Shown here one piece after another: positions 3,156 through 51,310 of a DNA stretch of 64,000 nucleotides; position 1 is the first letter of the stretch; each line of letters begins with the position of its first letter. The stretch covers positions 62,001 to 126,000 of the forward strand of contig CALMFC010000014.1 in assembly GCA_937863415.1 (NCBI GenBank), written 5' to 3'. Made by a program: the position numbers and the translations under genes. The notes under the pieces are model-generated. The model did no database searches, was not told the origin of the DNA, and saw only the letters and a list, made by a program, of their open reading frames with translations. The stretch is from an uncultured bacterium. Lineage in GTDB: Bacteria > Patescibacteriota > Saccharimonadia > Saccharimonadales > Saccharimonadaceae.

Positions 3156-3236
3156 AAAAAACGCCCACGTAAAAAAGTATTACGTAGACGCTATCAGCTC
3201 AATTGAATGGGCGGTTAATGGCGAGCATCATCGCCG
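3156..3236 (-). promoter_or_regulatory. Fluoride riboswitch (crcB motif) with terminator expression platform
   Basis: Reading the minus strand from about 3236, the sequence follows the crcB-motif consensus in order: GGCGATGATGCTCGCC, then AACCGCCC, then GAGCTGATAGCGTCTAC. The long-range pairing GATGC/GCGTC is present. The last aptamer strand CGTCTACGTAA also pairs with TTACGTGGGCG (3162-3172), followed by six T, giving a terminator hairpin. Fluoride binding should therefore sequester the terminator stem and turn the operon on. One C-A mismatch in the P2-like helix is the only weak point. Confidence 0.92.
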
Positions 3237-3254
3237 ATTGGTTCTTAAAATAGC

Positions 3255-20153: not shown

Positions 20154-20289
20154 CCAATAACCACCTATGTTAATTTGGGAGATTGTGAAATCGGTTGCAA
20201 TAACCGATTTCAGCCGAACGCTTTAATAATGCTCCTTGCGGAGCATTATTAAAAAAGTGTGCTCCCAGGTTAATATAGGCGGTTATTGG
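20154..20289 (+). ncRNA. R2 three-way-junction repeat, copy 1
   Basis: Outer arms 20154-20181 and 20262-20289 pair over most of their length (CCAATAACC/GGTTATTGG perfect). Inside are helix A (GAAATCGG/CCGATTTC), the conserved joint AGCCGAACGC, helix B (TTTAATAATGCTCC/GGAGCATTATTAAA) and the joint AAAGTGTG. It lies between the Mur ligase and leuS. The core is shared with 25190-25335 and 51155-51310, but the outer arm sequence is not. Confidence 0.75.
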
Positions 20290-25185: not shown

Positions 25186-25189
25186 TCTG

Positions 25190-25335
25190 AATCTTTGAGA
25201 CTAGTCAGCTCACAAGAAGAGACTGTGAAATCCGAGGCGTACCCGAGGGTTTCTGCCGAACGCTTAAAATAAACTCCATACGGAGTTTATTTTAAAAAGT
25301 GTGCTCTTCGAGTGAGTTGACTGGTTTTAAAGATT
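25190..25335 (+). ncRNA. R2 three-way-junction repeat, copy 2
   Basis: Outer arms 25190-25221 and 25304-25335 pair over about 30 bp; four positions are G-T or T-G on the plus strand and would be A-C mismatches on the minus strand. Helix A GAAATCC/GGGTTTC, joint TGCCGAACGC, perfect 14-bp helix B TTAAAATAAACTCC/GGAGTTTATTTTAA, joint AAAGTGTG. It lies between rnc and rpsP. Confidence 0.78.
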
Positions 25336-25430
25336 CGTTAACGGCTTGATTGACATCAGGGGCCAAACAGTGTAAACTTGAACAAGTCGTAAATAATTTT
25401 TAAAGTGAAGTAAAAGGAAAAGTATCATTT

Positions 25431-51154: not shown

Positions 51155-51310
51155 TTGAAGCTTGGAGTAATGACTATACTACTCTGGGAGCACTCTTTTT
51201 TAATAAAAGCTCCACTGGAGCTTTTATTAAAGCGTTCGGCTGAAATCCATAGGGACAACTATGGATTTCACAGTCTCCCCGAATAGTATAGTCATTACTC
51301 CAAGCTTCAA
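51155..51310 (-). ncRNA. R2 three-way-junction repeat, copy 3
   Basis: Minus-strand orientation. Outer arms 51155-51190 and 51275-51310 pair over about 36 nt with two differences; one is G-T only on the minus strand. Helix A GAAATCCATAG/CTATGGATTTC, joint AGCCGAACGC, helix B TTTAATAAAAGCTCC/GGAGCTTTTATTAAA, joint near AGAGTGCTC. It occupies the divergent gap between rel and gap. Confidence 0.78.

Follow-up and report, generated by a model that had tools for sequence, protein, structure and literature searches.

What are the three similar palindromes that recur in this part of a Saccharibacteria genome, and does the pairing preserved in their stems mark them as a structured RNA, as a preliminary description proposed? 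In the window (the whole stretch of DNA analysed, 64,000 nucleotides long), the copies lie at 20154-20289 (+), 25189-25336 (+), and 51155-51310 (-), within a base or two of the places first given for them, and are made up of the following parts.

20154-20181, plus strand: copy 1, 5' outer arm, 28 nt, pairing with 20262-20289 (24 Watson-Crick pairs, 3 G-T, 1 A-C)
20179-20264, plus strand: copy 1, core GAG...CTC, three-way junction (fold z = -13.6; covariance-model match 2.4e-38)
20187-20211, plus strand: copy 1, helix A hairpin GAAATC..GATTTC (fold, covariation)
20213-20221, plus strand: copy 1, conserved joint GCCGAACGC (joint scan of the window, column conservation)
20222-20253, plus strand: copy 1, helix B hairpin, terminator-like, with a CTCC..GGAG tip and an A/T base (fold)
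20262-20289, plus strand: copy 1, 3' outer arm (arm pairing)
25189-25221, plus strand: copy 2, 5' outer arm, immediately 3' of the stop codon of rnc (arm pairing; rnc confirmed)
25219-25306, plus strand: copy 2, core (fold, covariance-model match), at an rnc-rpsP site that is empty in the same-genus genomes examined
25227-25253, plus strand: copy 2, helix A (fold)
25255-25263, plus strand: copy 2, joint GCCGAACGC (joint scan)
25264-25295, plus strand: copy 2, helix B (fold)
25304-25336, plus strand: copy 2, 3' outer arm (arm pairing)
51275-51310, minus strand: copy 3, 5' outer arm, 36 nt, 34 Watson-Crick pairs (arm pairing)
51188-51277, minus strand: copy 3, core, between a divergent relA/spoT-type gene and gap, at a site that is empty in relatives
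51242-51269, minus strand: copy 3, helix A (fold)
51232-51240, minus strand: copy 3, joint GCCGAACGC (joint scan)
51199-51231, minus strand: copy 3, helix B (fold)
51155-51190, minus strand: copy 3, 3' outer arm (arm pairing)

The core strand of every copy folded, as had been described, into a long arm capped by a three-way junction with two hairpins. The fold z scores against dinucleotide shuffles were -13.6, -11.5, and -16.8 for copies 1, 2, and 3 (all ≤ -11.5), and none of the 200 shuffles made of each copy equalled its stability. Two other features of the preliminary description stood in part. A perfect GCCGAACGCTT joint is present at three places in the window and no others, one per copy, but the other two joints said to be shared vary between copies, TTGTGAAATC reading CTGTGAAATC in the other two copies and AAAGTGTG reading AAAGAGTG in copy 3. 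Similarly, the arm imperfections, all of which were said to be G-T on the core strand, are nearly so (G-T mismatches number 3, 4, and 1 in copies 1, 2, and 3), but the arm of copy 1 also contains one A-C, the other two copies having none. The arms of the window copies had no further match of at least 11 nt anywhere in the window. The Rfam scan proposed at the time (Rfam 15, 4227 families, gathering thresholds, whole window) gave no match at any of the three copies, and nothing meaningful appeared at low thresholds for copies 1 and 3. We therefore set aside a known Rfam class, and our searches brought up no named class that has this core, as the preliminary description had supposed. The Rfam matches in the window were tRNAs and one fluoride riboswitch only, the latter at 3178-3244 on the minus strand (RF01734, 47.9 bits).

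The core is ~85 to 90 nt long, reads GAG-A-C-TGT-helix A-AGCC-G-A-ACGC-helix B-AAAG-TG-CTC, and forms a three-way junction at the tip of an inverted-repeat arm of 28 to 34 bp. In an alignment of 80 copies with 38 named pairs, fitted to a model built from ten of those same sequences, standard pairs filled 93.6% of the cells at the 38 pairs, compared with 65.0% after shuffling; 874 cells had changed on both sides, compared with 234; and the covariation score was 0.734, compared with 0.179 (slid controls all scored below 0.13). Thus, the combination of a conserved core and covarying arms first seen in the window is borne out by very strong covariation across the family. The lone pair that closes the junction, formed by the base just 5' of TGTG and base 4 of GCCNAACGC, occurs as C-G in 53 copies, G-C in 11, A-U in 8, U-A in 5, and U-G in 2 and is unpaired in none. 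The junction linkers are single nucleotides, and several unpaired bases are invariant or nearly so, namely, the TG after the lone-pair base, GCC, the linker A, and the AAAG after helix B. Covariation of this kind is what is looked for in a structured RNA, but fold-back copying of DNA can produce it too (cf. PMC8794818).

The genome from which the window comes (G000; 847.5 kb) contains 10 exact matches to the core pattern, compared with 0 for the reversed pattern, and 14 full-length covariance-model matches (E of ~1e-27 or better), which include the three window copies. Overall, the covariance model found ~90 copies, distributed patchily among the genomes of one GTDB family, in which 16 of 101 genomes carry the element. 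A class-wide sample gave 25 positives among 393 genomes, all but one within that family (the exception was weak and matched the hairpin only), and in a phylum sample of 380 genomes the matches fell only in the same family, with none convincing elsewhere. This search of relatives, which had been suggested with the preliminary description, thus placed every convincing copy in one GTDB family, and named records carrying the same core are nearly all Candidatus Saccharibacteria. Among the genomes listed, the positives within the genus are only G000 (14 copies), G157 (4), and G185 (1), and the rnc-rpsP site of copy 2 and the relA-gap site of copy 3 lack the element in the relatives examined. We concluded from the patchy distribution and the empty orthologous sites in same-genus genomes that the element is mobile. 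Two copies (L041 and L051) are identical over ~143 nt in two unrelated genes, an RNase HII/UPF0102 open reading frame (ORF) and dnaX, and their identity stops exactly at the arm ends.

Comparison of copies within genomes showed that what moves is usually the core. The median arm is 31 bp long (interquartile range, 28.75 to 34), and in within-genome pairs with a core identity of at least 0.90, the mean arm identity was 0.54, compared with 0.42 ± 0.08 for shuffled 24-mers. Cores can be 94 to 98% identical, yet the arms of those same copies are usually unrelated. In L011 and L015, for example, the cores are 98% identical and identity runs from GAGACTG to GCTC, with unrelated arms beyond, whereas L020 and L022 have the core and the 5' arm in common and differ in the 3' arm, which pairs perfectly in one of the two and has mismatches in its counterpart. 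Together with L041 and L051, these pairs indicate that the element can travel with its arms or acquire new ones; that is, the core is copied between sites, and the arms are usually new at each site and sometimes travel whole. No sequence outside the core is conserved across copies, which implies that there is no conserved promoter, and the outer arm columns of the alignment show no conservation, the ends being copy specific and without a common tag.

Part of the answer to where new arms come from lies in the adjacent genes. In each of four loci with a verified gene, one arm of the element contains the end of the adjacent gene, its final codons and stop codon, and the opposite arm carries these letters inverted.

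Host-derived arm at rplU, genome G295: ATCAAGTAG
Host-derived arm at rplU, genome G199: TTAAGTAG
Host-derived arm at tuf, genome G199: ACCAAGTAG
Host-derived arm at a signal-peptidase gene, genome G414: TGGTTTTAG

In tlyA of G041, the reading frame passes through the element, and one arm consists of host coding sequence that the second arm repeats in inverted form; relative to solved TlyA structures, the insertion amounts to ~35 to 36 residues, close to the length of the core and a single arm, and the residues on the PDIVLIDVSF side belong to the host and are conserved. The arms of copies 2 and 3, in contrast, could not be matched to the flanking sequence of relatives, and the spacer lengths suggest that both arms came with the element; the insertions in TsaD and TopA likewise look like those of a whole palindrome. 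It is therefore not the case that one arm is always host sequence, as copies 2 and 3 and the movement of L041/L051 with their arms demonstrate, nor did the element insert into the loop of a preexisting host palindrome, since the host arm at tlyA, rplU, and tuf is ordinary coding sequence. The host-derived arm is on the 5' side at some loci and on the 3' side at others, so that a simple fold-back of one polarity does not fit everywhere. At four loci (L076, L078, L139, and L074), the arm extends 8 to 9 nt into coding sequence, or about the last two codons and the stop.

The stems within the core also change in a concerted way. Between close pairs of copies (core identity, 0.90 to 0.99), the core helices showed 35 double Watson-Crick changes and 1 single change, and unpaired positions differed in the same pairs at 12 of 750; these pairs share ancestry (mostly in genome G075), so that the independent events are fewer than 35. 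Several of the double changes are A-T to T-A and cannot pass through G-T. In two copies of G075 (L057 and L058), the lower half of helix B differs by perfectly compensated changes, with little change in the tip (GACTTCC..GGAAGTC) or in helix A. One-step perfect stems and multibase compensatory changes are expected of template switching during DNA replication, which can yield concerted stem changes even where no RNA is under selection (PMC8794818). That single changes are nearly absent is as template switching predicts, the alternative being very strong selection on the folded strand. The strand-specific G-T excess noted in the window holds for the whole family, with a G-T:A-C ratio of 154:61 in the arms on the core strand (P = 2e-10) and 16:6 in helix A; helix B, at 14:16, has no strand bias. 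With gene contexts taken, here and for the placement counts below, from simple ORF calls, the arm ratio was 39:9 for codirectional sense copies, 23:11 for codirectional antisense copies, 22:8 for copies antisense within coding sequences, 42:22 between convergent genes, and 22:8 between divergent genes. The excess thus tracks the core strand in every gene context, and host read-through RNA therefore does not explain it. A stage in the life cycle of the element at which the core strand is folded would do so, through either selection or fold-back synthesis on that strand that fixes G-T misincorporations.

Placement relative to host genes was varied. Out of 87 copies, 22 lie between convergent genes, 35 between codirectional genes, and 13 between divergent genes, and 17 lie in ORFs, 14 of them antisense (a small number of these ORFs are probably not real). 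In-frame inserts with protein-family or structural support were found in MnmA (two species), TlyA, a UPF0020-type methyltransferase (two), and Fpg and also in DnaX, RNase HII joined to UPF0102, TsaD, TopA, and Der, and RSAE/RSAG and HSS are among the motifs that recur in the encoded peptides. In one genus (g8), element-free relatives have a terminator soon after the stop codon of rplU and of tuf, and element-bearing loci mostly have helix B alone in its place (the exception is G064 at rplU). It is from this comparison that helix B of copy 1 takes its terminator-like label, and the substitution suggests that helix B can act as a terminator. A simple terminator scan of the window did not call helix B. 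One decayed copy, in G007, has kept helix B and lost helix A.

Taken together, these results favor, with a probability that we put at roughly 0.6, a mobile noncoding DNA palindrome resembling the Rickettsia palindromic elements (RPEs), in which fold-back copying of the core strand both creates the stems and mends them. As the element spreads, this strand would be present in folded, single-stranded form, and its end would fold back on the closing GAG/CTC pairs and be extended by a polymerase, which would copy the opposite arm or, at some loci, the adjacent host DNA for ~25 to 30 nt, so that the new stem is perfect. Helices A and B would be rewritten, and both kept perfect, by fold-back or template-switch copying of the same kind, and the enzymes may be those of ordinary replication or repair. 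We propose that hosts tolerate the copies because these are intergenic hairpins or terminators or encode polar peptide inserts rich in Ser, Arg, and Glu. A tentative version, which we hold to be possible at less than even odds, dispenses with any enzyme of the element's own: the folded three-way-junction single strand would be integrated, its arms and stems would be rewritten by host fold-back synthesis, and the palindrome itself would be the replicating entity. The folded core strand could conceivably act as RNA at some point in the life cycle.

The preliminary description had instead taken covariation and wobble pairs as the mark of a structured RNA, in which the core strand would be transcribed into a three-way-junction RNA, its stems kept by selection for folding, and perhaps spread as RNA in the manner of a SINE. 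The very strong covariation, which extends to the lone junction pair, the invariant unpaired bases of the core, and the G-T excess on the core strand are all what such an RNA would show, but we consider this reading unlikely. The element is mobile, lies in any orientation to genes, and is translated in frame within proteins, mostly from the opposite strand; there is no conserved promoter or other sequence outside the core; the G-T bias does not depend on which way host genes are transcribed; and the stems change concertedly, with single-sided intermediates almost absent. A reverse-transcriptase retroelement is also unsupported, since RVT_1, present in G157 and G075, is absent from six genomes (G000, the genome of the window itself, and G054, G041, G083, G095, and G038).

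An alternative is that a conventional transposase, since lost or undetected, moves the element in trans, as with ordinary MITE- or REP-like sequences, and that the arms then drift fast under selection for pairing. This would agree with the mobility and size observed, with the joint movement of palindrome and arms in L041/L051, and with head-to-head pairs that recall REPIN-like arrangements. It is nevertheless improbable, as the arms are not a shared terminal repeat, drift cannot yield unrelated arms beside 98% identical cores, and a direct target duplication of at least 3 nt was seen in 1 of 74 copies, compared with 1.5 expected. A Y1 (HUH) transposase had no match in G000, which has 14 copies, and its presence elsewhere does not follow the element, so that a REP/RAYT system was rejected on these grounds as well as on those of size (~140 bp) and the absent tag; DDE/MITE transposition was rejected for want of conserved terminal inverted repeats and target duplications. 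A dedicated mobilizer from outside Y1 and RVT_1, the two enzyme families searched, is possible. Lastly, the copies might be a host cis element, a bidirectional terminator or stabilizer of mRNA 3' ends copied around for its usefulness, which would fit the 22 of 87 copies between convergent genes, the replacement of ordinary terminators by helix B at most of the g8 rplU/tuf element loci, and the retention of helix B in the decayed copy. This is very unlikely, since termination would be harmful at the 13 copies between divergent genes and the 17 in ORFs, the terminator scan missed helix B in the window, and helix A, the junction, and the arms are left unexplained.

RPEs are mobile, ~100 to 150 bp long, and found between genes or in frame in metabolic and housekeeping genes, where they encode a conserved peptide (PMC10969869, PMC3733652). 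The Saccharibacteria element likewise is a mobile palindrome of similar size that is intergenic or inserted in frame in protein genes with a conserved peptide, a likeness in how the two work. It belongs to an unrelated phylum and adds to the RPE pattern a three-way-junction core, copy-specific arms, inverted host flank, and concerted stem changes. REP, BIME, and REPIN sequences are also intergenic palindromes near gene ends, sometimes in inverted pairs, with proposed roles in termination and mRNA stability (PMC3733652), but REPs, associated with RAYT proteins, are 20 to 40 bp long with a GTAG or CGTC tag. Template-switch mutations that create or mend RNA hairpins resemble our case in their one-step perfect stems and compensatory multibase changes but are known as a mutation process in RNA gene evolution and not as the life cycle of a mobile element (PMC8794818). 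The repetitive and double hairpin elements of fungal and sponge mitochondria are mobile, lie in spacers and variable parts of genes, include frame-keeping inserts, and have no known transposase (PMC2800124). Despite this likeness, they are organellar, smaller, and without a three-way-junction core, and homology is not expected. Integron attC sites, which function in folded, single-stranded form, are imperfect palindromes whose stems vary; they are conserved at their outer ends, and the Saccharibacteria element is the reverse, with a conserved center and variable outer arms. We know of no explanation for how short palindromes such as RPEs enter protein genes without disrupting them. Cores that are 94 to 98% identical beside different matching arms, some of them copied from the flanking gene, and two-sided stem changes make a role for fold-back synthesis in mobility directly testable. 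They also warn that a mobile DNA palindrome may generate covariation, which is usually taken to prove a structured RNA. Some tiny Saccharibacteria genomes carry in-frame selfish inserts in MnmA, TopA, Der, TsaD, DnaX, and TlyA.

Several minor observations concern the arrangement of copies. Neither a suspected tRNA (L124:3478) nor, in one viral-contig pattern scan and two distant BLAST searches of phage and plasmid records, a phage or plasmid vehicle was found. A gene cassette was rejected: although in G064 and in G075 a gene is bracketed by a pair of elements, it is not the same gene, and copies mostly occur singly. One contig (L141, G083:C5:1-613) starts at an element inside tlyA, so that assembly from short reads may fail at palindromes of this kind, with the risk of too low a copy count. 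In G038, the element peptide forms the linker between the RNase HII and UPF0102 domains of a single ORF (L041:1141-2301, minus strand), as if the element had fused two neighboring genes. Elements also occur in G041 and G083 as head-to-head inverted pairs, ~20 to 30 bp apart with their 5' arms abutting (L059, L060, L061, and L130), and by the end of a ribosomal protein gene, these two sister species (L128 in G041 and L032 in G083) carry elements with different arms at what is apparently the same site, in opposite orientations.
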